A stretch of DNA of 64,000 nt from Paenibacillus sp. FSL H7-0357 (lineage in GTDB: Bacteria; Bacillota; Bacilli; Paenibacillales; Paenibacillaceae). The notes beneath the pieces were generated by a model. It saw only the letters and a program-made list of their open reading frames with translations, searched no databases and was not told the DNA's origin. The position numbers were made by a program, and so were the translations under genes. Shown here in pieces: positions 5,273 through 17,575 of this stretch (positions within the stretch are counted from its first letter, which is position 1; each line of letters starts with the position of its first letter). The stretch covers positions 7,421,501 through 7,485,500 of the forward strand of contig NZ_CP009241.1 in NCBI RefSeq assembly GCF_000758525.1. Direction: 5' to 3'.

Positions 5273-6367
5273 ATGCCTATGAATCTAACAGAAAAGGTGG
5301 CAGCCCTCCCTTTATCGCCCGGAGTCTATCTGATGAAGGACAGCCTCGGCCATATCATCTATGTCGGCAAAGCCAAGCAGTTGAGGAAAAGGGTGCAGTC
5401 CTACTTCTACAATTCCAAGGGGCATTCGCCCAAGGTAAACCGGCTGGTCAGCAACATCAGGGATCTTGAATATAGGGTGACCGATACGGAATTTGAAGCC
5501 TTTATGCTGGAGTGCCAGCTCATTAAGGAAATTAAGCCGATGTACAATAAAAAAATGAAAAATCCGCTCGCCTACACCTATATCACCATTCGCAATGATA
5601 CCGCCTACCGGCAGCTCGAAGTGGGCTATGATCCAGGACAGGCTGAGAACAGCCTATCCTTTGGTCCCTTTACCAGCAGAAGCACGGTGGAACGGGCGGT
5701 GCAAGGCATTAAGGAATGTCAGAAGATCCTTTGCAGCAGTCCGCATGCCCAACGGACGCTCTGTCTCAACCATTCTCTGGGCCTATGCATCGGGATGTGT
5801 GGAGGCGGAGAAGCGCTGGAGAAATACAATGGCATTATCGACCGGATCATCGCCCTGCTGAATGGAGAGGACACGGGTATCCTTGAGGATCTGGAGCGGC
5901 GAATGGATGAGGCGGCGGAGAGATATGATTTCGAAGCGGCGGCCAAATATCGCGACTATGTCGGAGCTGTCCAGTCCCTGCTGCAGAAGGAGAAGGTTAC
6001 CCGCTTCACGTCAGAGAACCAGAACATCGTCGTCCTGGAACCGGTGAACGAACAACTTCTAAAGCTTATTCTGATTAAAGGCAGCCGCATTCTCTTCCGG
6101 GCCAAGCTGGAAACCGGACATCCGGATATGGCGCAGCTGCAGGCCGGCATCCAATCCGCTATTGCTGAGACCTTCACCCAATTGACACCGGAACCGCCGG
6201 AAGCGGTCAACCGCCATAAAATTGACGAAGCTCAAATCATCTACAGCTATTTAAAAAGCAATTCCGGCAGCTATATCCTTGTTCCCCAGGAGCTGCTTCA
6301 TCCAGAGCATCAATCGTCTCTTCGCGGGGCAGTGCGTGAACTGCTGGAGAATTATTTCGGGCTGTAA
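5273..6367 (+). CDS. GIY-YIG nuclease, UvrC-like without the C-terminal half
   Basis: A 364-residue protein starting at ATG 5273 behind GGAGGAGATTTC. Residues about 14-95 are a GIY-YIG nuclease domain (PGVYLMKD, then IIYVGKAKQLRKRV, then EFEAFMLECQLIKEIKP). This is followed by the UvrC linker region with cysteines near 153, 163, 171 and 175. A UVR-type helical segment lies near 205-240 (DEAAERYDFEAAAKYRDYV). Full UvrC is about 590-600 residues and also has an RNase H-like nuclease and helix-hairpin-helix domains, which are absent. The protein therefore resembles Cho or UvrC-N paralogues that make a 3' incision only. A 132-bp stretch of this gene recurs at 8110-8241. Confidence 0.85.
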   Translation: MPMNLTEKVAALPLSPGVYLMKDSLGHIIYVGKAKQLRKRVQSYFYNSKGHSPKVNRLVSNIRDLEYRVTDTEFEAFMLECQLIKEIKPMYNKKMKNPLAYTYITIRNDTAYRQLEVGYDPGQAENSLSFGPFTSRSTVERAVQGIKECQKILCSSPHAQRTLCLNHSLGLCIGMCGGGEALEKYNGIIDRIIALLNGEDTGILEDLERRMDEAAERYDFEAAAKYRDYVGAVQSLLQKEKVTRFTSENQNIVVLEPVNEQLLKLILIKGSRILFRAKLETGHPDMAQLQAGIQSAIAETFTQLTPEPPEAVNRHKIDEAQIIYSYLKSNSGSYILVPQELLHPEHQSSLRGAVRELLENYFGL

Positions 6368-7941: not shown

Positions 7942-8109
7942 GTGGCCGGATATCAAAAAAAGCCATCCCGAAGAACCGCTTTATCATGAGCTATGTCAGG
8001 AGAAGCAAGCGAAGCCTCTCTTATCGGTGAACCTTCTTCTAATGGGCCCTGCCCTTGCTTTGCCAATAGTCCGCTGGCTCCCGGTCAAGCACCTCCGTGC
8101 CTCCATTTT

Positions 8110-8241
8110 GATCCCTTTACCAGCAGAAACACGTTGGAACGGGCGGTGCAAGGCATCAAGGACTGCCAGAAGATCCTCTGCAGCAGTCCGCATGCCAAAC
8201 GGACGCTCTGTCTCGACCATTCTCTGGACCTATGCATCGGG
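8110..8241 (+). pseudogene. Duplicated fragment of the UvrC-like gene
   Basis: This stretch matches 5663-5794 of the UvrC-like gene with no gaps and, by hand alignment, 10 mismatches in 132 bases. It encodes part of the region from PFTSR to LCIG (44 codons) and has no sequence similarity to the gene on either side. It is a dead gene piece rather than a working gene. It abuts the left end of the AT-rich sactipeptide island at 8246, so it probably marks a recombination or insertion junction. Confidence 0.85.
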
Positions 8242-8245
8242 TTGT

Positions 8246-8443
8246 CTACTCTTTAAAGATAGATGGCTCCTTAACATACCACTCCGTCAAACCACAGGTT
8301 GAACAGACATAGGGAACAAGTTCACTGGTTTTTTTAGTTGTAAATGCTCTATCCTGCTTTTTGATAGCAGAAAATTGTCCAACCGTATTTGTCGCTGTAC
8401 ATCTTGTTAGCTTGACGCCGCAATTCCGGCACATATAAATCAT
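8246..8443 (-). CDS. Small zinc-ribbon protein of the sactipeptide cluster
   Basis: A 65-residue protein with two CxxC pairs, CRNC near the start and CSTC near residue 50, separated by a basic, Thr/Lys-rich middle; this is a zinc-ribbon layout. The start at 8443 is chosen because it falls one base after the TGA of the S41-type peptidase gene and has AAGGAG 9 bases upstream. The upstream ATG at 8452 would sit directly against that site. The overlap-style junction shows translational coupling, so it belongs to the cluster operon. Function unknown; a nucleic-acid or protein-binding role, or a part in immunity, are all possible. Confidence 0.7.
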   Translation of the reverse strand: MIYMCRNCGVKLTRCTATNTVGQFSAIKKQDRAFTTKKTSELVPYVCSTCGLTEWYVKEPSIFKE

Positions 8444-8444
8444 T

Positions 8445-9257
8445 TCAATCATCTCCTTGTATAATTTTCAATATCTGATTCATATACCCGTCCGTTTCTA
8501 CAGGGATGATATTGCTCTGCAGGTCGTGTACATCACAGTGATCTACATACCATCTTGCATCCGTTATCGAGAAATGATAGTGATACTTGAGATTGGTTAC
8601 AGCATGCAGGGTTACTGTCTTTTTCACTGTACCCTCTCCAATTAAATGCACGTTGTGCAGTTTTTGGACAAGCATCAACGCCAATATTTCACTACAGCTT
8701 GCTGTATGAGGGTTTACAAGTATGAATATTTTTTTAAAATCATAAAATTCATTATTGATTTTTTGGTGTATTACTTGCTTCTCCTTGTAATTCAAGATCA
8801 ACATACTACATCTGGGAAGAAGCTGCCTGGCGATTTTTAGACAAGCGCCTAATTTACCACCGCTGTTATTTCTGAGATCCAGGATCAAATAACTCATTTT
8901 AGCGTACTTATCAAGCAGGCTGCCAATCTCCGCTGCTGACTCATCATTAAAACTAGTAAACGCAATGTACAAAATATCATGCAGCTTGATATCATATTTT
9001 ATCTCATTCATTCTTTTCCGCTTTGCGAATGATTTCACTGGGTAAAAGTAATTAAATTGAGTATATATCGAATCCGTTGTACTATTCACAAATTGCTGAA
9101 AATCCAAATGAGAGATCTTCCGTCTGTTCAATAGAGCCTGCTTTTTCTCTTTATAACTATCCTCCATTACCAAATTTAATTCCTTTTCTTCATATACCTC
9201 GACAAGCATCTCCACCAGGCGCTTTGGAATATAGCGATGCGATCTGAGTTTGAGCAT
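8445..9257 (-). CDS. S41-family (tail-specific-type) peptidase of the sactipeptide cluster
   Basis: A 270-residue protein with the S41 core but no PDZ domain and no signal peptide, so probably cytoplasmic. Motifs visible are DLRNNSGG (127-134), the nucleophile region TASCSE with Ser187, and GEGTVKK (207-213), where Lys213 or Lys212 aligns with the general base. The first 90 residues are a basic helical region. Its start is 3 bases after the stop of the second membrane subunit gene, so it is co-translated with the exporter. In a RiPP cluster the plausible job is leader removal or trimming of the modified peptide. S41 enzymes are uncommon in that role, so degradation or immunity is an alternative. 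Confidence 0.8.
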   Translation of the reverse strand: MLKLRSHRYIPKRLVEMLVEVYEEKELNLVMEDSYKEKKQALLNRRKISHLDFQQFVNSTTDSIYTQFNYFYPVKSFAKRKRMNEIKYDIKLHDILYIAFTSFNDESAAEIGSLLDKYAKMSYLILDLRNNSGGKLGACLKIARQLLPRCSMLILNYKEKQVIHQKINNEFYDFKKIFILVNPHTASCSEILALMLVQKLHNVHLIGEGTVKKTVTLHAVTNLKYHYHFSITDARWYVDHCDVHDLQSNIIPVETDGYMNQILKIIQGDD

Positions 9258-9260
9258 TTT

Positions 9261-9950
9261 TTATTCCTCTATTGTGTTGCTATCCTCAAATGTCTTAAGT
9301 AGCTTCTGTGTATTGATAATTAATTTCTCTTTATTCGGGTTATTAACGATCCAATAAGAAATCAGTAAAATGAATAGGGACAAGACAAATGATACAGCTG
9401 TAATTTGCAGAGACACCTCTATCCCTTTACCATAATAAAATAAAAACAGAAAAGGATTGGCATAAATCAACAAACCTGCTGCAGATGCCAAGACTTGCTT
9501 AAGTTTGGAGTAATCCGCAAAATGAATCGTAGAAAATCCTATTATAGAAGCTCCAACTACAATATTCAGAACATTTTGCAGTATCGCCTGACTGGTTATA
9601 TTGAAGTCTATATCGAATAGGAAAGGACCGCTAAGAACAGCTATCCATAAGATAATGTTGGAATATATGAATCCAATTACTGTAGTGCATACAAGGTTTA
9701 CCAACCATATTTTTTTTATCGAGGTGTTAGTCGCCAATATAACTTCTGTGGATACAAGTTCTTCAATTGAGAAAAATACAAAGGTTTGCAGTAGAATTAC
9801 GCTCAGAGAATAAAATGCAACTACATTTTCTGTTTTTATATTCAATATTAATAATAGAAACAAGTAAGCTACTGGTAGGATAAAAAATACAAGCACTCTG
9901 ACTTTGCTTCTTTGGAATTCGCTATATTTCTTCCACATTAACGCTCTCAT
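9261..9950 (-). CDS. ABC transporter membrane subunit 2 of the sactipeptide cluster
   Basis: A 229-residue protein with six predicted membrane helices (for example VLVFFILPVAYLFLLLIL and VLSLFILLISYWIV) and a charged C-terminal tail. It starts one base after the stop of the neighbouring permease gene (TAA-T-ATG), so the two are translated as a pair. I see no conserved family motif beyond the general ABC-2 permease look. With the ATPase at 10573-11487 it should form the exporter, or the self-protection transporter, for the peptide product. Confidence 0.75.
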   Translation of the reverse strand: MRALMWKKYSEFQRSKVRVLVFFILPVAYLFLLLILNIKTENVVAFYSLSVILLQTFVFFSIEELVSTEVILATNTSIKKIWLVNLVCTTVIGFIYSNIILWIAVLSGPFLFDIDFNITSQAILQNVLNIVVGASIIGFSTIHFADYSKLKQVLASAAGLLIYANPFLFLFYYGKGIEVSLQITAVSFVLSLFILLISYWIVNNPNKEKLIINTQKLLKTFEDSNTIEE

Positions 9951-9951
9951 A

Positions 9952-10557
9952 TTACAGGCTCCTTCTCACGATTCTTTCTTTCCTTATTTTCCTTCTGAGA
10001 ACACCGTTCATTACTATAATCAATAGAAAACTGACGAGCACTGCAATAATAAAATCTTGTTTATTAAGGCTTAAGATCATGTAGTAGACAAGGTAATCAA
10101 GCAACAACACAGCAAATTTATATTTTTTCCCAAAATGCCATATCAATTTATATAACATTAAATGATATGCAGTAACCCAGGTTAATAAGCACGCAACCTC
10201 AAGGAAATTCATGTTGAAAGATACATCTGCTGCAAATAGAATCATAATATTAACAACTGAAACTACAATACACTTGCAAATTAAATATATTGTTTTTCCA
10301 AGCCACACATCTTCAACATTTATGGGCAATGCCAGCAAGGACTCTATACTTTGGTTTATATCTGAAATGATCATTTCCATCTGAAAGACAAAATAAATTG
10401 CCAGCAGCAAATAAACATCATAATTTTGAAAAGCACTTTTATATCTGATTAAAACGTAGTTTCCAAGAATAATGAAGAATATAGAAAGCAAATTTGCCTT
10501 AATCCTTAATTTATCTTTTTTCAGTTCTCGCCATAATATAGTTTTATATATGCTCAT
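9952..10557 (-). CDS. ABC transporter membrane subunit 1 of the sactipeptide cluster
   Basis: A 201-residue protein with five or six hydrophobic helices (such as VYLLLAIYFVFQMEM and FAVLLLDYLVYYMIL) and a basic C-terminus. It starts at ATG 10557 behind TGGAGG, 15 bases after the ATPase gene. It is small for an ABC-2 permease, which suggests that the two membrane subunits pair as half-units. Codon use is AT-rich like the rest of the island. Confidence 0.75.
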   Translation of the reverse strand: MSIYKTILWRELKKDKLRIKANLLSIFFIILGNYVLIRYKSAFQNYDVYLLLAIYFVFQMEMIISDINQSIESLLALPINVEDVWLGKTIYLICKCIVVSVVNIMILFAADVSFNMNFLEVACLLTWVTAYHLMLYKLIWHFGKKYKFAVLLLDYLVYYMILSLNKQDFIIAVLVSFLLIIVMNGVLRRKIRKERIVRRSL

Positions 10558-10572
10558 AGGCCTCCATACAAA

Positions 10573-11487
10573 TTACTCATTAATAATTTTATTGTACAAG
10601 TGCTTCAGATCATTATTCACTCTCTTCATTTCCAGAATTTCTACATTATCACTCACAATCCATCGGGATAAATAATTTGCTTCATCCTTTAGTTGAACAA
10701 ATACCCCATCCTCTATCAATTTGCAGGATAGAACAAAAGGCTGGCTCTTTAGTTTGTTTATCAGTTGATTATTATCTTCTGATTTTAGAACATATGTGTT
10801 GTCTGAGTATGCTTTCTCAAGTTCGTTGTATGTATTCACATGAAGAATGTTCCCCTTTTTGAGAAATGCCACATGCGAGCATACCTCCTGCAATTCGTTA
10901 AGATCATGTGAATTAAAAATAATGGTACATCCTTTGCCTGTAAGCTCTTGGATAAACTCCTTAAGGAGCATTCTGCCTTCTACATCAAGCCCTCTACTAG
11001 GTTCGTCTAAAATCAATAATTCCGGTTCATTAATGAGTGCACGGGCAATAGCCAGTCTTTGTTTCATACCCCTGGAGAAAAATGAAATCTTATCAGATCT
11101 TTTATCATACAAGTCAACCTTTTTCAGCAGCCGTCCTATTCTTTCTGATCTTTCCGGATATTTTGCCGAAGGGTAGTAAATGCGATCAAAGAACTCCAGA
11201 TTATCCCAACAACTCAGATCTTTAAACAGGCCGATATTGTCCAGCAGGAAACCTATTTTTTTTCTGACTGAAGTATATTCCTTAGAAGAAACATCAACAT
11301 TATTAACCAGCACTTTACCCTCGGTTGTGTTGTACAAATTCAAAATCATTCTAATAATCGTTGTTTTCCCGGCGCCATTTGGCCCTACAATAGAGAATAC
11401 GGACCCCTTATGAATGTGAAGATTAATTTTGCTAATAATCTCTTGTTCGCCTATCCTTTTTGTAACATCTATTAATTTGACTTCCAT
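10573..11487 (-). CDS. ABC transporter ATPase of the sactipeptide cluster
   Basis: A 304-residue nucleotide-binding subunit. Walker A is GPNGAGKTT (near residue 35), the signature is FSRGMKQRL, Walker B is LLILDEPSRGLD, and the H-loop is in FNSHDLNE. Residues about 215-304 form an accessory C-terminal domain as in bacitracin/lantibiotic-type ATPases (BcrA, NatA). It overlaps the preceding radical SAM gene by 16 bases and starts behind TGGAGG. With the two following membrane proteins it makes a complete ABC system, probably for export of, or immunity to, the mature peptide. Confidence 0.9.
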   Translation of the reverse strand: MEVKLIDVTKRIGEQEIISKINLHIHKGSVFSIVGPNGAGKTTIIRMILNLYNTTEGKVLVNNVDVSSKEYTSVRKKIGFLLDNIGLFKDLSCWDNLEFFDRIYYPSAKYPERSERIGRLLKKVDLYDKRSDKISFFSRGMKQRLAIARALINEPELLILDEPSRGLDVEGRMLLKEFIQELTGKGCTIIFNSHDLNELQEVCSHVAFLKKGNILHVNTYNELEKAYSDNTYVLKSEDNNQLINKLKSQPFVLSCKLIEDGVFVQLKDEANYLSRWIVSDNVEILEMKRVNNDLKHLYNKIINE

Positions 11488-12566
11488 AGTCCAGCCTCCA
11501 AATTGTACTCGCAGCTTTTTTCGATATTTACTTTATTGCATGCATTGCATGCGTATTTAAACTCACATCGAATGCACTTGCCAGATGTATCCTTGGTATA
11601 AACCGGCTTATTCCAGTATTCTTCTACTAGTATCTTTAATATGCTTGATATGCCCATTTTATTTACATTTCCAACCACCTCATCTTGTTTGCCTAAACAG
11701 CTTATGACATCCCCATTATGACAAATGGTTACTCTGCCGCTTAAGCACCAGTCATTCATTTTCTTTATGAAAAATTTATTCATGCCCGTTTTAATAATGG
11801 AGCTCTCTTTAATCACCGGATTTTGTAAGGAAGTTCTCACACTCCTCCATGATTGTTTGATGGCCACCGGCAAAAAATCTATATCTATTAATGCAATAGT
11901 GACGTTGTCATATGAATCGTAATTAGTTGTGACTTGCCCAAGGTCTGCTGAATCAAACAGATTAATATATAAATGGGTCTCCAGCGGCAGTTCATTAATT
12001 TTAATCAGGCCATTGGTACTTATGGTGATATTGATCTGTTTATTCAATCCGTAATTAACAATGTCAACCACCTGAGGAAAAATAGCCGGTTCTCCCCCTG
12101 TTAACACTAAATTCGTTACTCCAAAAAAGTTAAGCTCGTCAATGAGTTTATACCAATCCTCAACCCTCATGTCGTTGGTATTATTTTCTAATTTTATACA
12201 CATTGGACAAAAAGCGCTACTACAAAAACTGCAGTCAAGATTACACTGATTAGTCAGTTGTAATACTGCAGAGCTGATTACCGGAGTGTCCTTCCAAAAC
12301 TTCTTTTGATTAAAAACATTAACCGTTCTCAATTTATCTATAAAGATTTTGGTATCTGAGAAAAACCCCCAGCCCATATTGCTTAATTCCTTAACCAGTT
12401 TCTCATCGGTGCTAACCAATTCATTTTTTTCACATTTCAACAGTAGCTGGGTACTCTCTTCATCCAGCACTACCATTCTTTCTTGCAATAGATTGTGAAT
12501 GACTGAGTTCTTCTCCCCTACTTCCAAGTAACATTCAGGGTACAAATTAAAATATTTATAGTTCAA
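11472..12566 (-). CDS. Radical SAM/SPASM peptide-modifying enzyme 2
   Basis: Starting at the TTG at 12566 (GGGAGGAG 6 bases upstream, 11-base overlap with the preceding gene) gives 364 residues. Residues 1-80 form an N-terminal domain (YFNLYPECYLEV and a helix ending LSNMGWGFF) that resembles the recognition part of SPASM peptide maturases. The radical SAM cluster motif is CNLDCSFC (cysteines 108, 112, 115), followed by the LTGGEP motif. An extra CPMC lies just after the cluster. The C-terminus carries SPASM-like cysteines in CHNGDVISC, CIRCEFKYAC and CNAC. Two different radical SAM proteins for one precursor suggest either two modifications or a paired complex. Confidence 0.85.
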   Translation of the reverse strand: MNYKYFNLYPECYLEVGEKNSVIHNLLQERMVVLDEESTQLLLKCEKNELVSTDEKLVKELSNMGWGFFSDTKIFIDKLRTVNVFNQKKFWKDTPVISSAVLQLTNQCNLDCSFCSSAFCPMCIKLENNTNDMRVEDWYKLIDELNFFGVTNLVLTGGEPAIFPQVVDIVNYGLNKQINITISTNGLIKINELPLETHLYINLFDSADLGQVTTNYDSYDNVTIALIDIDFLPVAIKQSWRSVRTSLQNPVIKESSIIKTGMNKFFIKKMNDWCLSGRVTICHNGDVISCLGKQDEVVGNVNKMGISSILKILVEEYWNKPVYTKDTSGKCIRCEFKYACNACNKVNIEKSCEYNLEAGLWKSN

Positions 12567-13977
12567 TTCGTTCTCCTCCCTTCTCATAGATTGTGTTGAA
12601 ATAGTCAACAGTTATATCTTCAAAAATATCCGGTCTCTCTTCCAGAATGTTTAAAAAATGGGTCAGCCTTTCCCGGACAGATCTTTCAATGTTAGTACAT
12701 AAGGATGGGGATTTCACAAAAGCTGTATCCGTTGCACACTGTACAAAGCACATGCTGCAGAACCGGGTAAAATTGCAATCCTCACAATGATCACAAATGT
12801 TCTTGTTGTATTCATTGATGATGGAAGTGATTTTCCCATAGTCCAAGCCGTCATCAACATTACCAATCCAATGCTTCTCATTAATTTTTTCGCACATGTG
12901 TATTTTCCCGTCTGCAGTCACATATATTTTTTCCCCGGGAACGCAAGTTGATGTAAATGGAAGGCACTCTGTACGTCTTTCATTAATAACTGAGTGAAAT
13001 GCCAGTTCAGAATAATTAATTCCGATTAGAGCATACAAAAATGAGTCCTTTTTAATCTTATTTTCGCTGGCCAAGTTATAGAATTTGTTCTGCAAGCCTG
13101 CCATCATATCATCGAAATCATTCAAATCACAGGAGGAAAACTGCTGATAGTATGTAGAATTAACCGCTTCAACCCGAGCAAGCTTAACCATGAACAGATC
13201 TTCCTCATCCAGAAACTGCTCATAGTCAAAGAGATTGCTCTTCAAGTCATAACAGGCGCTTATCCCAAATTTCGAATAATCCTTATAATCCTTTTTAAAT
13301 TCACGGATGTTCGTAATTACTTCATCAAAACTGCCTTTACCGTTAAGCTTCACTCTATTTCTGTCGTGGTTTTCCTTATTGCCATCTAAACTTACGATGA
13401 TGGAAAATCCGTTTTCGACCAAAAATTTTTGTACTTCCTTATTAAAGAGCACTCCATTCGTCGTTACATTAAATAGTATTTCTCCATATTGCGTGTAAGT
13501 AGACTTTGTATATTCAACAATTTCCCTAATTGTTTTAATATTAATTAAGGGTTCCCCGCCGTAAAACCCTATAACAGGTTTCCTGTTTGGATTTCTATAC
13601 TGAATTGTTTTGAAATTTTCAAAGTAAAAATCTATTGCTTTTTTGCCAACCTCAAAGGTTAGCTGGGTGTTCTCATACCCTTTAGTGTATTGATAGTGGT
13701 CTGAGTATATGCAATATTTACATCTCAGATTACAACTGGAGGTGCTTTCTAGTATCAATTGTCTGAAACCATTGGCTTGCCGGAATAAATAGTCTTTCAC
13801 TTGTCGGGTATCTACAGGGTATGATCTTAGATTCTGCTGAACAGGTATTATTGATTGATATTTATTGAAATGCTCTTCTTTTGTCCATGAGTCACCTGTA
13901 ATCGGATTAATAATGCCTGTTGTGTCGTCATAAAAATACCTGTTCCCTGCTTTACTTTCTAAAAACAAACCTTTCAT
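12556..13977 (-). CDS. Radical SAM/SPASM peptide-modifying enzyme 1 (sactisynthase-like)
   Basis: A 473-residue protein with the radical SAM motif CNLRCKYC (cysteines 82, 86, 89) and the GGEP motif inside VIGFYGGEPLINI. A C-terminal SPASM region has cysteines in CVPGEKIYVTADGKIHMC and a run CDHCEDCNFTRFCSMCFVQC. Enzymes with this layout install thioether bonds on peptides (AlbA for subtilosin, and ranthipeptide maturases) or act as sulfatase-maturase relatives. It is the first gene after the Cys-rich precursor, separated from it by a 131-base gap containing a strong hairpin. It is the prime candidate for Cys-to-alpha-carbon (or beta/gamma) crosslinking of that precursor. Confidence 0.9.
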   Translation of the reverse strand: MKGLFLESKAGNRYFYDDTTGIINPITGDSWTKEEHFNKYQSIIPVQQNLRSYPVDTRQVKDYLFRQANGFRQLILESTSSCNLRCKYCIYSDHYQYTKGYENTQLTFEVGKKAIDFYFENFKTIQYRNPNRKPVIGFYGGEPLINIKTIREIVEYTKSTYTQYGEILFNVTTNGVLFNKEVQKFLVENGFSIIVSLDGNKENHDRNRVKLNGKGSFDEVITNIREFKKDYKDYSKFGISACYDLKSNLFDYEQFLDEEDLFMVKLARVEAVNSTYYQQFSSCDLNDFDDMMAGLQNKFYNLASENKIKKDSFLYALIGINYSELAFHSVINERRTECLPFTSTCVPGEKIYVTADGKIHMCEKINEKHWIGNVDDGLDYGKITSIINEYNKNICDHCEDCNFTRFCSMCFVQCATDTAFVKSPSLCTNIERSVRERLTHFLNILEERPDIFEDITVDYFNTIYEKGGERIEL

Positions 13978-14035
13978 TAACTACACTCCCCGTGAAACAA
14001 GATATGAAATTTAACGTTTGTGAAAATTTGCACTA

Positions 14036-14060
14036 AGGGAAGTAAACAAATTACTTCCCT
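14036..14060 (-). terminator. Strong hairpin between precursor and radical SAM genes (attenuator/processing site)
   Basis: A perfect 10-base stem (AGGGAAGTAA with TTACTTCCCT) and 5-base loop lie in the gap after the precursor stop. No long T run follows in the direction of transcription, so it looks like a leaky terminator or RNA-stabilising element. Such elements often make the precursor more abundant than the enzyme messages. Confidence 0.7.
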
Positions 14061-14108
14061 CGTCAGCTACCGTCTATTATGGATATAAAAATTACGTTTA
14101 AGTATGTC

Positions 14109-14306
14109 CTAGCTGTTTGCTACATTGATACCGACTGCCCCGGCACTTGTAGTTGAACCGGCAATTTCCAATGTGGCTGCAGCTGTAGCAGCTTGTCCCA
14201 GAACAGGAATAATACAAGCCAAGCAAGCCAAACAAGCTATACAAGCGACACAAGCATAACAAGCTATGCAACCAGCCATACTTTCTTCCGTTCCAATCTC
14301 CCGCAT
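14109..14306 (-). CDS. Sactipeptide-type RiPP precursor with seven-cysteine ladder
   Basis: A 65-residue peptide starting at ATG 14306, with AAAGGAGG 8 bases upstream. Residues 1-9 (MREIGTEES) are a short charged leader-like part, close in length to the 8-residue leader of subtilosin. Residues 13, 16, 19, 22, 25, 28 and 31 are all cysteine, each pair separated by a hydrophobic residue and alanine (C-x-A-C). Residues 32-38 (IIPVLGQ) could form a turn. Residues 39-65 are rich in Ala, Thr, Ser, Gly and Asn, like the acceptor strand of hairpin sactipeptides such as thurincin H. The adjacent radical SAM genes, exporter and peptidase support a RiPP precursor. The exact cleavage and crosslink sites cannot be read from sequence. 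Confidence 0.88.
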   Translation of the reverse strand: MREIGTEESMAGCIACYACVACIACLACLACIIPVLGQAATAAATLEIAGSTTSAGAVGINVANS

Positions 14307-14360
14307 CCTTTTCGCCTCCTTTCCCTATTGCGATTAGCTCTTGTTTCAATGAGCAGCTCA

Positions 14361-14389
14361 ATTATACTTCCAATACTTGTTAATCAATC
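14361..14389 (-). promoter_or_regulatory. Likely promoter of the sactipeptide operon
   Basis: Reading the minus strand, a perfect TATAAT (14361-14366) lies 17 bases from a poor -35 (GATTGA, 14384-14389). This gives an untranslated leader of about 48 bases before the precursor. A weak -35 suits control by an activator; the AgrA-like regulator is encoded divergently. Farther upstream, three TTAA blocks repeat at 7-base intervals near 14447-14465 and could be part of a binding site. Confidence 0.55.
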
Positions 14390-14580
14390 ACTTAGTGTCC
14401 CAATTGCAATAATTAGAGTCCGAGTGGCATATTAGCTAAAATTTTTTAAGCGTTAACGTTTAATGGAATGAATGTAAAATCTTTAATTCTATAATAAATT
14501 TTATGTAAAATAATAGAATATTATTGTATACTATTTCTTGCCTTATTTTTGCGTATTCATTTGCAGGGAGGGATAATAAA

Positions 14581-15333
14581 TTGATTAACATTGCAGTATG
14601 TGATGATGATATTAGTGAAATTGCCCGTTTACAAAAGATGTTTGCAAGACTTGCTGTCTGCTCTTCATTTGACATACAAATACATTACTTCACGTCAGGC
14701 AAAGAACTGCTTCGAAAATACAAAGAACATACCCCCTCAACATTTCAGGTTTTATGCCTTGATATAGAAATGCCTGATATTAATGGCATTGAGTTGGCCC
14801 AAGAAATACGGAATTCCCCGGATTTTGATGTGCAGATCATCTTCCTGACAAGTTATCCGGCTTATATACTCGACAGCCTTGACACCCAGCCCTTTCAATA
14901 TTTAATAAAGCCAGTTCTCTATGAGTTTTTTGAATCCAAAATGTTCAAACTGTTAAATTACCTGTATTCGCAATCCAAAAAGTATTTAACTATTAAAATT
15001 GAAGGGGAAGACTTTTTTTTTAGATATTCAGAGATTATTGCAATACAGAAAAGTAAGAAGGTAATTGGGCGAGACTATATGGAGATCATTACTACGGCAA
15101 AAGATTATTACACCACAAAAGGAATATTGTCGGAGATCCAATCAAAGCTAGAATTTCCGTTTCTGCAAGTTCACCGTTCAGTACTTATTAATCTGGATCA
15201 TCTCCGTAAGTTGACAGCATCATCGGTTATCATGATCAATGATTCTGAATTCCCTCTCAGCCGTTCTAAATCCAAGCTCGTCAAGGAAGCATTAGCACGA
15301 AATTTGGTTATGGGTCTTAAAGACAATGTATAA
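14581..15333 (+). CDS. AgrA-like response regulator (receiver + LytTR)
   Basis: Started at the TTG at 14581 (GGAGGG upstream) this is 250 residues, beginning MINIAVCDDD. The receiver domain has the acidic pocket DDD, the phospho-acceptor region LCLDIEMPDINGIE and the conserved lysine in YLIKP. From about 145 onward a LytTR DNA-binding domain follows (DFFFRYSEIIAIQKSKK, then FLQVHRSVLINLDHLRKL). LytTR regulators of the AgrA/ComE class bind paired repeats and activate peptide-signal operons. It is divergent from the sactipeptide operon and overlaps its kinase gene by 8 bases, so it very likely controls the cluster. Confidence 0.88.
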   Translation: MINIAVCDDDISEIARLQKMFARLAVCSSFDIQIHYFTSGKELLRKYKEHTPSTFQVLCLDIEMPDINGIELAQEIRNSPDFDVQIIFLTSYPAYILDSLDTQPFQYLIKPVLYEFFESKMFKLLNYLYSQSKKYLTIKIEGEDFFFRYSEIIAIQKSKKVIGRDYMEIITTAKDYYTTKGILSEIQSKLEFPFLQVHRSVLINLDHLRKLTASSVIMINDSEFPLSRSKSKLVKEALARNLVMGLKDNV

Positions 15334-16606
15334 AGAACTTTCGATATGGTATATGGGGGCTTCTTTATTTTCCATTTTTATAGCCAAACGTTACTTTTCA
15401 ACACATTTCCAGACGCTTCGGAATAACACGATCATACGATTATTTTGCCTATCTGTAGGAAGCATTCTATATACAATATCAAATTCACTCATTCTTCCCA
15501 TTACTTTTCACGCCTGTTTGACGGTTTCCGGGACCCTACTATTTGCTTTTATTTATAGAGAAGAAACTTTCAGGACTCTATACTATTCATTCAAGTATCT
15601 ATCTCTAATAGCCGTAACATATATTGTATCAAGTTGCCTTTTTTTTCTATTCTTGAAATTTTCACATCTGTATTTATCAGAGAATGAATCCCATTTAATA
15701 GTTATCACACTGTCATTGATATTTTTATTTCTCCTCATAACTTTTAGCTCAACAATCAAAAAAAAATCTAAGCAGGGGTTGCCTAGATTACAATACTTCG
15801 TCTTTATTCTGATCCTTCTCAATAATACATTTGTCGCAGCTTATCTTTTAATCAACAACAAACACAACACACTCTATCTTTTCGCTACGATAGCAATATC
15901 ATCCACTAGCTTATTTATCATTTACTATTCTGAGTTAGCTGCCAAAGCAACTAAGCTGTCTAAAATAAACAACCGGCTAAATGAACAATTTCTAGCTCAA
16001 GATAACAATTTAAAACATATGACGAATACATTTAAGAATATCCAGAGCGTAATTCACGATGTCAACAAGCAATTAATATACATCGAAAAATGCATTGTTG
16101 AAAACTCATCACAAGATGCTGTTATACATATCAACCAAACTCTTCAAACAGTTCATAATTCATATCACCTTATAAATACTGGGAATTTAATCATTGATGC
16201 GCTTGTTGGCTATACCCTAAATACCGCTAAACATAGAAAAATTGATGTCACCCATCAAATTCATGCAGTCCCGAATAACATCAGCATTGAACGGTATGAT
16301 CTGTGTATTCTCATGGGGAATATTCTAGACAACGCAATAGAAGCTGTGGAGGGAGTTAGACAGAGAACGAAGTGGATTAAGATCAATATTCACTCTAAAA
16401 AAAATTTTCTAATTGTACAAGTGATCAATCCCTATGAAATTTCTCATGTTGAATCCAAATCCTGTAGGCACGATTGCAAAACACACGGATACGGTTTGGA
16501 TAACATTAGAAGTGTTGCCGATAAATACGGAGGAAGCATGAGCATATTAAAAAATGAATCAACCTTCGATATCATTGCTGTTTTGCCTTTTTCAAAAAGA
16601 ATATAA
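15326..16606 (+). CDS. AgrC-like sensor histidine kinase (GHKL type)
   Basis: A 426-residue protein. The first 205 residues contain six or seven membrane helices. A coiled linker leads to the phospho-acceptor box (VIHDVNKQL near 245), and a GHKL ATPase domain follows with N-box GNILDNAIEA and G-box HGYGLDNIR. This is the architecture of AgrC/FsrC/ComD peptide-sensing kinases. It overlaps the regulator gene. No AgrB protease or AgrD propeptide is nearby, so the natural candidate ligand is the product of the 14109-14306 precursor itself. Confidence 0.88.
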   Translation: MYKELSIWYMGASLFSIFIAKRYFSTHFQTLRNNTIIRLFCLSVGSILYTISNSLILPITFHACLTVSGTLLFAFIYREETFRTLYYSFKYLSLIAVTYIVSSCLFFLFLKFSHLYLSENESHLIVITLSLIFLFLLITFSSTIKKKSKQGLPRLQYFVFILILLNNTFVAAYLLINNKHNTLYLFATIAISSTSLFIIYYSELAAKATKLSKINNRLNEQFLAQDNNLKHMTNTFKNIQSVIHDVNKQLIYIEKCIVENSSQDAVIHINQTLQTVHNSYHLINTGNLIIDALVGYTLNTAKHRKIDVTHQIHAVPNNISIERYDLCILMGNILDNAIEAVEGVRQRTKWIKINIHSKKNFLIVQVINPYEISHVESKSCRHDCKTHGYGLDNIRSVADKYGGSMSILKNESTFDIIAVLPFSKRI

Positions 16607-16643
16607 AAGAGAAAAGAGCTCTTAATAAAAACTCTCTTCTCTC
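16603..16643. terminator. Hairpin between convergent genes at the right end of the island
   Basis: AAGAGAAAAGAG can pair with CTCTCTTCTCTT (one mismatch) over a 13-base loop. The minus-strand side is followed by TTTTATA. It may serve both the kinase gene and the convergent oxidoreductase gene. Confidence 0.45.
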
Positions 16644-16708
16644 TTGGCCTTTACTTTCTAGAACGGCGGGCAAGAAACTACCCTGGCGTTCTGAACCCTT
16701 AAATGGTC

Positions 16709-17575
16709 TTACGCCTTCGCACCGTTCAACATTTCACTTACGCCTTCGCTAAGCGTCGTGAGCGGACGCTGCAGCAGCTTCCCGAAATCATCACTCTCGA
16801 TGTCCAAAGCACCTTCGCGGATCGCGGCTTGAATCGCGACCACAATCGGGAGCGCTGCTTCCGGCACGCCCGCTCCGGCCATAACGCTGGAGTAGGTGGC
16901 ATCATCCACCTGCTGCACAGCAACGTCCTTGCCCAGCACGCTGCCGACTGTTGCAGCCAGCTCTGCCTGGGTTGCCGGCTTGCCGGACAATTCGTACACG
17001 GCGTTCTCTGTACCTTCGCCAGCCAGAACGACGGCTGCTGCCTCTGCATAGTCGCGGCGGGTAGCCCAGCCAACCTTGCCTTCGCCAGCCGAAGTCAGCC
17101 AAGGGGCTCCGGCTTGAACGGCCTGAATGGAGCCGATCTCATTCTCCAGATACCAGTTGTTGCGCAGGAAGGCATAAGGAATGCCTGACTCAATAATGAA
17201 TTGTTCCGTTGCACGGTGCACCGGAGCAAGGAACAGGGTACTGTTGTCGGCATGGCCAACGCTGGTGTACACGATGTAGCCTACACCTGCCCGCACAGCG
17301 GCATCAACTGCTGCCTTGTGCTGGCGGATCCGGGTATCATTATCTCCGTCTGCTGATACGATCAGCAGACGGTCCACACCGGCAAACGCCGCATCCAGTG
17401 TCTCCGGCTGATCGAAATCACCATGACGGACGTCGACTCCACGGGCCCGCAGGCTCTCAGCCTTCTCCGGGTTTCTTACACTGGCTACAAGCTTCTCAGC
17501 CGGTACGGATTTCAGCAAGGTTTCTGCTACGATAGAACCAAATTGTCCTGTTGCTCCTGTTAATGCGATTGTCAT
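16709..17575 (-). CDS. NmrA/QorB-like NAD(P)H:quinone oxidoreductase
   Basis: A 288-residue atypical short-chain dehydrogenase with the N-terminal dinucleotide motif TGATGQFG (residues 6-13) and GDFDQPETLDAAFAGVDRLLIVSA after it. The sequence has the NmrA/QorB (QOR2) layout: no Tyr-x-x-x-Lys catalytic pair in the usual form and a variable C-terminal substrate region. Members reduce quinones or sense NAD(P). The gene has its own promoter with a palindrome over the -10 box. Base composition returns to the chromosomal level here, marking the end of the AT-rich island. Confidence 0.85.
   Translation of the reverse strand: MTIALTGATGQFGSIVAETLLKSVPAEKLVASVRNPEKAESLRARGVDVRHGDFDQPETLDAAFAGVDRLLIVSADGDNDTRIRQHKAAVDAAVRAGVGYIVYTSVGHADNSTLFLAPVHRATEQFIIESGIPYAFLRNNWYLENEIGSIQAVQAGAPWLTSAGEGKVGWATRRDYAEAAAVVLAGEGTENAVYELSGKPATQAELAATVGSVLGKDVAVQQVDDATYSSVMAGAGVPEAALPIVVAIQAAIREGALDIESDDFGKLLQRPLTTLSEGVSEMLNGAKA

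Follow-up and report, generated by a model that had tools for sequence, protein, structure and literature searches.

Several described gene clusters for sactipeptides, which belong to the ribosomally synthesized and post-translationally modified peptides (RiPPs), resemble the operon analysed here. The thuricin CD (trn) cluster brings together two radical S-adenosylmethionine (rSAM) enzymes, an ATP-binding cassette (ABC) transporter and a C-terminal protease (PMC3132745, PMC8172795), and its two different precursors carry three bridges each, with Cys at positions 5, 9 and 13 (pitch of 4; PMC8172795); the available parts of the cluster descriptions mention neither a LytTR/GHKL pair nor a zinc ribbon. 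The two thuricin CD enzymes assemble on the precursor as a complex, and the rSAM chemistry of one of them alone is strictly needed (PMC12093266). Thuricin Z has one precursor that is a substrate of both its enzymes, ThzC and ThzD, each of which can make the bridges (PMC8172795). Thurincin H (thn) carries nested bridges (Cys4-Ser28, Cys7-Thr25, Cys10-Thr22 and Cys13-Asn19), so that bridging Cys (4, 7, 10, 13) and acceptors follow the same strict pitch of 3, and its cluster includes a short leader, a protease, an ABC transporter, a precursor gene in three identical copies, ThnB as the sole rSAM enzyme and a single regulator, thnR (PMC8172795). SacP23 from Paenibacillus polymyxa has a single rSAM maturase, of the CcpM/TIGR04068 type, together with an ACP-like protein, a subtilisin-like protease and a CLI_3235-type precursor (PMC10731318). 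The operon reported here lies in a stretch of 64,000 nucleotides (the window, positions 7421501-7485500 of the single-contig 7.69 Mb genome of Paenibacillus sp. FSL H7-0357) and encodes a peptide with an unbroken ladder of seven Cys followed by two rSAM enzymes. We consider it, with a probability of roughly 0.65, to be a regulated two-rSAM operon for a sactipeptide-type bacteriocin, both the crosslinks and the activity being predicted from sequence, and its novelty would lie in the long Cys ladder of 3-residue pitch rather than in its list of parts.

The initial annotation of the window had described a Cys-rich precursor, two radical SAM/SPASM enzymes, an ABC ATPase with two membrane subunits, an S41-type peptidase, a zinc-ribbon protein and a divergent LytTR/GHKL two-component system. 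Pfam and NCBIfam searches with the ten proteins bore out these genes and families, except that the zinc-ribbon label is founded on two CxxC pairs and on sub-threshold family matches only. The gene positions (open reading frame (ORF) list and check of upstream sequences) are as in that annotation, with two corrections: the response regulator starts at a TTG at 14581, and the probable start of rSAM2 is moved (see below). The features are as follows:

14109-14306, minus strand: precursor peptide, 65 residues (ORF with AGGAGG upstream, counterparts in five other species)
12556-13977, minus strand: rSAM1, radical SAM/SPASM maturase, 473 residues (Pfam Radical_SAM, 53.6 bits)
11472-12566, minus strand: rSAM2, second radical SAM/SPASM enzyme, about 364 residues (Pfam Radical_SAM, 44.2 bits)
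10573-11487, minus strand: ABC transporter ATPase, 304 residues (Pfam ABC_tran, 122.7 bits)
9952-10557, minus strand: ABC membrane subunit A, 201 residues (hydrophobic segments, position in relatives)
9261-9950, minus strand: ABC membrane subunit B, 229 residues (hydrophobic segments, tblastn in relatives)
8445-9257, minus strand: S41-type peptidase, 270 residues (Pfam Peptidase_S41, 78 bits for a cutoff of 24)
8246-8452, minus strand: small zinc-ribbon-like protein, 68 residues (two CxxC pairs)
14581-15333, plus strand: LytTR response regulator, 250 residues (Pfam LytTR, 52.2 bits; Response_reg, 48.0 bits)
15326-16606, plus strand: GHKL sensor kinase, 426 residues (Pfam HATPase_c_5, 83.5 bits)
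14392-14421, no strand assigned: candidate site for the regulator (direct repeat with a 21-base period, TTAGTGTCC-N12-TTAGAGTCC)

The eight minus-strand genes follow each other from 14306 down to 8246 in the order precursor, rSAM1, rSAM2, ATPase, membrane subunits A and B, S41 peptidase and zinc-ribbon-like protein. The precursor is separated from rSAM1 by 131 bases and the rSAM1 and rSAM2 frames overlap. The tight coupling claimed for the cluster holds, the genes from rSAM2 to the zinc ribbon being joined by overlaps (16 bases for rSAM2/ATPase, 8 bases for S41/zinc ribbon) or by gaps of 15, 1 and 3 bases; the regulator and kinase genes also overlap by 8 bases and are divergent from the operon. 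The GC content of the block (35.4%, versus 50% for its flanks in the window) suggests that it was acquired. Six loci are intact from precursor to S41 (those of the window and of genomes G040, G099, G001, G081 and G387, membrane subunit A being counted in the last two by position only), and each of them has two rSAM genes behind the precursor. A chance assembly was rejected: the operon is real, complete and conserved, and the view of it as a complete sactipeptide-type RiPP cluster was upheld. At gathering thresholds, no Rfam family matched positions 8000-16900.

The precursor carries seven Cys, at positions 13, 16, 19, 22, 25, 28 and 31, which are preceded by 12 residues and followed by a C-terminal arm of 34 residues rich in Ala, Thr, Ser and Gly. 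No family match was obtained for it in Pfam, NCBIfam or the PDB sequences. Similar precursors are located directly before rSAM1 in five other species, and of the codons that differ from the closest relative, 11 are changed synonymously and 4 non-synonymously. Because of these counterparts and of this synonymous excess, which is that expected of a translated gene under selection, the precursor is not a chance ORF. The pitch of the Cys is exactly three residues in all six precursors (with 7, 7, 7, 7, 8 and 8 Cys), as in the N-terminal half of the thurincin H core, and the end of the leader is conserved as [IV]G.[EK][EQ]..A[AG]C. In the window as in the five relatives, rSAM1 is preceded by one ladder-type ORF; the two different precursors typical of thuricin CD were not found, a second one with its Cys arranged otherwise having been sought in ORF lists only. 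A scan of all available genomes for seven Cys codons at a 3-codon pitch yielded at least 80 loci, of which most among the matches listed were DNA repeats or lay in another reading frame, and it neither supports nor limits the distribution of the family. A non-exhaustive search of the open PMC literature retrieved no described seven-Cys ladder.

As the unbroken pitch of 3 in six precursors is that of thurincin H, a nested ladder can be proposed for these peptides. Cys were paired with C-terminal-arm residues spaced at an equal pitch, on the model of thurincin H, and the register was picked by eye on six sequences, with no statistical test. With a loop of 6, the acceptors of the four 7-Cys peptides are QTAEGTG, QTAEGTG, QIVEATA and QTVEATA, and with a loop of 7 those of both 8-Cys peptides are ATAETTSA. 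In this preferred register, the acceptors are, from the innermost, Q/A, T/I, A/V, E, G/A/T, T and G/A/S, the fourth (E) and the sixth (T) being identical in the six peptides, and the pairs for the window would be C31-Q38, C28-T41, C25-A44, C22-E47, C19-G50, C16-T53 and C13-G56. Loops of 4 or 7 place a Pro at an acceptor position in G099 and G001, while a loop of 5 gives mostly Gly or Ala acceptors in 7-Cys peptides and several Ile, Leu and Val in 8-Cys ones. We propose, tentatively and at somewhat less than even odds, that the mature peptide is a nested sactionine ladder of seven rungs (eight in sister species), that a complex of the two enzymes builds it, and that the extra conserved CxxC of rSAM2, beside the radical SAM cluster, marks an entire family of partner maturases. 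The loss of mass expected in the initial annotation, up to 14 Da for seven crosslinks, appears to be a sound prediction; the calculated neutral monoisotopic mass of the 65-residue precursor (formyl group excluded) would fall from 6261.98 to 6247.87 Da. The most bridges given for any sactipeptide in the available review passages is four, about half the number of the proposed rungs. If the ladder is true, the peptide could be the most crosslinked nested sactipeptide and would provide a natural ruler for the iteration of an enzyme pair at a fixed 3-residue step (7 or 8 rungs).

A thiazole/oxazole peptide related to heterocycloanthracin, or a metal-binding Cys peptide, is very improbable: the 8-Cys relatives match the heterocycloanthracin model weakly (14.3 and 15.8 bits for a cutoff of 35), but no cyclodehydratase/YcaO family is among the matches listed for the ten cluster proteins, and the invariable presence of two rSAM genes behind the precursor of the intact loci also argues against it.

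The assignment to the sactipeptide type draws on gene content and order, on the Cys pitch of the six precursors and on the two enzymes. A short Cys-containing precursor lies beside a radical SAM/SPASM enzyme, and the CxxxCxxC motif and the Cys of the SPASM region are kept in both enzymes (rSAM1 in five species, rSAM2 in 12 of 12 aligned proteins). The radical SAM motif of rSAM1 reads C82-NLR-C86-KY-C89 and its motifs are invariant in the alignment of five species. The highest NCBIfam scores of rSAM1 are those of TIGR04068 CcpM (236.4 bits), GG_samocin (206), RumMC sactisynthase (180), lachnocin (172), PapB (142) and SCIFF maturase (128), and its best PDB match is 5wgg (E 2.5e-28), which we take to be the SCIFF enzyme CteB. 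The sactipeptide type is favoured because rSAM1 scores with CcpM, RumMC and 5wgg and because the nearest solved relative of the more remote rSAM2 is the sactisynthase SkfB (6efn, E 1.3e-7; profile 8.1e-13, a search that matched the radical SAM core). The PapB and SCIFF maturase scores and the 5wgg match would also fit a ranthipeptide or another rSAM-thioether class, in which the Cys sulfurs would be joined to beta or gamma carbons; this is unlikely, since rSAM1 scores higher with CcpM and RumMC, since rSAM2 is closest to SkfB, and since an N-terminal Cys ladder followed by an Ala/Thr/Ser arm has the layout of nested sactipeptides, unlike the PapA type. PapA is of the Cys-x-x-x-Asp type. In the same genus, rSAM1 relatives also occur outside this family, and among viral contigs 43 loci encode rSAM1 relatives of at most 34% identity, one of which, on an IMG/VR contig (L164), is 27% identical over residues 34-453.

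The ORF of rSAM2 opens at 12608, and a TTG at 12566 is the more likely start because GGGAGGAG is found just upstream and because the resulting N-terminus, MNYKYF, matches MNYKYFRLYEEC of the Ruminococcus albus protein (see below). An alignment was built with 12 rSAM2-type proteins, each encoded behind a relative of rSAM1 (in G445, behind what is left of it). Seven belong to this family, four were taken from Cys-peptide loci of other kinds in the genus and R. albus supplied the last; the remnants of L159 and L160 and a 260-residue fragment in L026 were left out. Twelve Cys are common to all 12 partners, i.e. the radical SAM triad, an extra CxxC located 4 to 10 residues after it (C134 and C137 in a 378-residue numbering) and seven Cys in the SPASM region. 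SkfB, as aligned, has no counterpart of the extra CxxC, which offers a handle on the question of why some operons need two rSAM enzymes. It is possible, though doubtful, that rSAM2 does not crosslink (it would carry out another modification or recognize the leader) and that rSAM1 alone makes the bridges, a view that is compatible with a sactipeptide-type operon. The finding that thuricin CD strictly needs the rSAM chemistry of only one of its enzymes (PMC12093266) and the lower conservation of rSAM2 (mean column identity of 61%, versus 70% for rSAM1) speak for it, but the retention of the three radical SAM Cys and of the seven SPASM-region Cys in 12 of 12 proteins indicates that the chemistry is used. 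With regard to an RRE domain in the maturases, the PDB profile search with rSAM2 matched the radical SAM core, and AlphaFold2 models computed without relatives had a mean predicted local distance difference test (pLDDT) of 32.5 for rSAM2 and 36.8 for rSAM1, too low for use. Two-rSAM loci are also present elsewhere in the genus (L022 6356-9481, L023 4662-7580, L024 5472-8410 and L025 6551-9466), with small ORFs of four to six Cys, mostly at a 4-residue pitch, before the first enzyme; those of L022 and L023 are both below every model cutoff.

The combination of parts had been presented as unfamiliar, a claim that we reject, as the thuricin CD-type clusters and a huazacin-family operon of R. albus 7 hold it in outline. 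Plasmid records matched rSAM1 in 205 cases and rSAM2 in six, and only pRUMAL03 of R. albus 7 (NC_014826), the best plasmid match for rSAM1, was read in detail. Its operon encodes, in order, a LytTR regulator, a GHKL kinase, a hypothetical protein, two huazacin-family precursors, an rSAM enzyme, an rSAM-like protein, an ABC ATPase, a membrane protein and a CPBP protease, with a further small hypothetical gene on the opposite strand before the precursors. Five of its proteins match those of the window by BLAST at E 1e-19 or better (rSAM1, 31% identity over 467 residues; rSAM2, 25% over 408; ATPase, 41% over 233; regulator, 27%; kinase, 25%) and the membrane protein does so weakly (E 0.025). However, its two precursors are identical and have four Cys spaced by 4, 8 and 4, they match the huazacin model NF037972 (50.1 bits), and no S41 or zinc-ribbon gene is annotated. 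An S41 peptidase in place of the CPBP/Rce1-like protease, a zinc ribbon and divergent regulators (those of R. albus are on the strand of the operon) are thus further differences of the window operon besides the ladder. The ladder has the spacing of thurincin H and is about twice as long, and two rSAM enzymes are present instead of the single one of thurincin H, as in thuricin CD.

Among 100 genomes of the genus, 15 had a match to rSAM1 at E 1e-40 and five of these (the window's own included) stand out by an identity of at least 42%. With an rSAM2 profile, matches were obtained in eight of 394 genomes of the family (E 1e-30), in six of 392 from the order and in two of 398 from the class (E 1e-25), these samples overlapping. 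Besides the six intact loci, two loci (G029 and G089) are broken, and in G445, which belongs to another family, a Mutator-family transposase gene (L162 7881-9104) stands in the place expected for the precursor and for the N-terminal 450 residues of rSAM1, while rSAM2, the ATPase, the membrane genes and S41 are still open; this would be a second loss of the precursor end.

The ATPase scores best with the NCBIfam models drrA (199.9 bits) and lantibiotic-protection ATPase (169.8), both below cutoff. The two membrane subunits are strongly hydrophobic and reach no Pfam cutoff; B has tblastn matches in all intact relatives, and an ORF of about 200-210 residues occupies the position of A in these relatives, with no detectable similarity in G081 and G387. 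Pfam finds no PDZ domain in the S41 peptidase, which also lacks a hydrophobic segment, and its S187 and K213, invariant in five species, align with the Ser and Lys of the D1 protease (1fc7), which are presumably catalytic. The zinc-ribbon gene is present in four of the nine loci compared (the window, L018, L159 and L160).

A natural loss sheds light on the roles of these genes. In G029 (L159) and G089 (L160), the locus lies between the same neighbours as in G040 (L018), and both have the same deletion, corresponding to L018 7196 to 9131, through which the precursor and rSAM1 are lost entirely and rSAM2 lacks its first part. A second rSAM2 deletion is also common to them, and the rSAM2 remnant carries at the same point an IS605 OrfB-type insertion (L159 7600-8739, L160 7662-8801), with an ORF of 379 residues (Pfam on the L159 copy) and a 7-base overlap flanking the insertion relative to L018. 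The shared deletion stops at the TATAAT that precedes the precursor, and the remaining genes may thus be driven from the precursor promoter. In both species, the ATPase, membrane A, membrane B, zinc-ribbon, regulator and kinase genes are open (12 of 12 frames), whereas S41 was damaged separately, by a frameshifting deletion of 85 bases in one and by an in-frame deletion of 156 bases in the other. The private changes of the ATPase in L159 and L160 are 33 synonymous and 8 non-synonymous, while for the remnant of rSAM2 these counts are 9 and 11 (Fisher p 0.008). Since the transporter genes were kept open while S41 was broken twice in precursor-less species, these data suggest that the transporter protects the cell and that the S41 peptidase matures the peptide. 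The role of the peptidase in thuricin CD-like clusters is left open in the available part of PMC3132745, and the shared deletion provides a ready-made genetic contrast between peptide-making and protecting genes, although this contrast rests on two species and one deletion.

The two-component pair adjoins the operon in the window, G040, G099, G029 and G089. The contig of G001 reaches only 854 bases upstream, where a LytTR-like stretch was dropped as it had no Pfam match, and G445 has a transposase gene on the pair's side. The control had been called AgrAC-like: this holds for the architecture of the pair, but its identification as an Agr quorum system was rejected, since the AgrA and AgrC models of NCBIfam score 26.4 and 15.8 bits for cutoffs of 400 and 500. 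The kinase, with about six membrane segments, has no family-level match to AgrC, and no AgrB model is among the matches listed for the ten proteins. The direct repeat at 14392-14421 lies just upstream of the TATAAT at 14366-14361 (minus strand), and GTCC recurs with the same 21-base period in L018, L159 and L160, the repeat not being seen in L019. A 21-base period is usual for LytTR sites, and the repeat is a candidate site for the regulator. A consensus promoter scan gave 3 sites, versus a mean of 3.0 in shuffled sequences, and the TATAAT promoter of the precursor was not among them. Two other LytTR regulators of the genus, 49% (L027 4261-5010, G017) and 38% (L028 5008-5733, G046) identical to that of the window, adjoin different rSAM maturase loci, and this type of regulator therefore seems to be common to rSAM peptide loci of the genus.

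Such a divergent LytTR/GHKL pair, as in agr-type circuits, could mean that the modified peptide is mainly a signal, i.e. a quorum-type RiPP sensed by the kinase and with little antimicrobial action. The pair is kept in both precursor-less species, and among the kept genes the ratio of non-synonymous to synonymous substitution rates (dN/dS) is highest for the kinase (0.29 when L159 is compared with L160), as it might be for a receptor. Nevertheless, a mainly signalling role is quite unlikely: no such pair is found beside two intact loci, the non-producers have retained the transporter as well as the pair, a pattern more consistent with protection, and the characterized relatives are mostly antibacterial peptides in the available parts of PMC8172795 and PMC12093266.

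Taken together, the gene set very probably makes a small peptide that is multiply stapled by two radical enzymes, and the following lifecycle can be drawn for the bacteriocin operon. The GHKL kinase would be activated by an external signal, the peptide itself being the simplest candidate, and the LytTR regulator would then switch on the operon from the divergent promoter. rSAM1 and rSAM2 would bind the leader, probably as a complex similar to TrnC/TrnD, and one or both of them would abstract alpha-hydrogens along the C-terminal arm, each Cys being joined to an alpha-carbon to give a ladder in the form of a nested hairpin. The peptide would be trimmed in the cytoplasm by the S41 peptidase, an enzyme devoid of an export signal, and the ABC transporter would expel the peptide and protect the producer.

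Several observations weigh against parts of this scheme. The maturase search proposed in the initial annotation gave rSAM1 its best score with CcpM, as said above, but below the curated cutoffs, for CcpM (500 bits) as for the best 25 of 54 NCBIfam models, and the precursor is unmatched by NF037972 (cutoff 35 bits) even at E 10. The preferred register has Gly, Ala, Ile or Val at several acceptor places, it requires a loop longer by one residue in the 8-Cys peptides, and the loop of 5 of thurincin H may apply to the 7-Cys peptides, where it meets mostly small acceptors. The membrane subunits display no extra constraint in the precursor-less species (33 synonymous and 30 non-synonymous changes, versus 9 and 11 in the remnant; p 0.61), and the remnant itself (9 and 13 between L159 and L160) shows no clear excess of relaxation over intact rSAM2 (43 and 24 between the window and G040; p 0.08). 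The remnant diverges at 23 of 601 bases of its main piece (3.8%) and at 0 of 55 of the second, versus a synonymous divergence (dS) of 0.20 for the ATPase; the loss is therefore young or was spread by recombination, and gene retention is a weak test. Lastly, no two-component pair is found within the 16-17 kb read at the G081 and G387 loci, and as these are intact, two-component control is not essential to the system.

Next to the operon, a uvrC-like fragment of 55 residues (8080-8244, plus strand) abuts the zinc-ribbon gene and is 78% identical to a full copy at 5273-6367 (plus strand) that has GIY-YIG and UVR domains. In L018, a full-length uvrC-like gene sits right at the same junction with the zinc-ribbon gene, and the region adjacent to the operon has therefore been rearranged.

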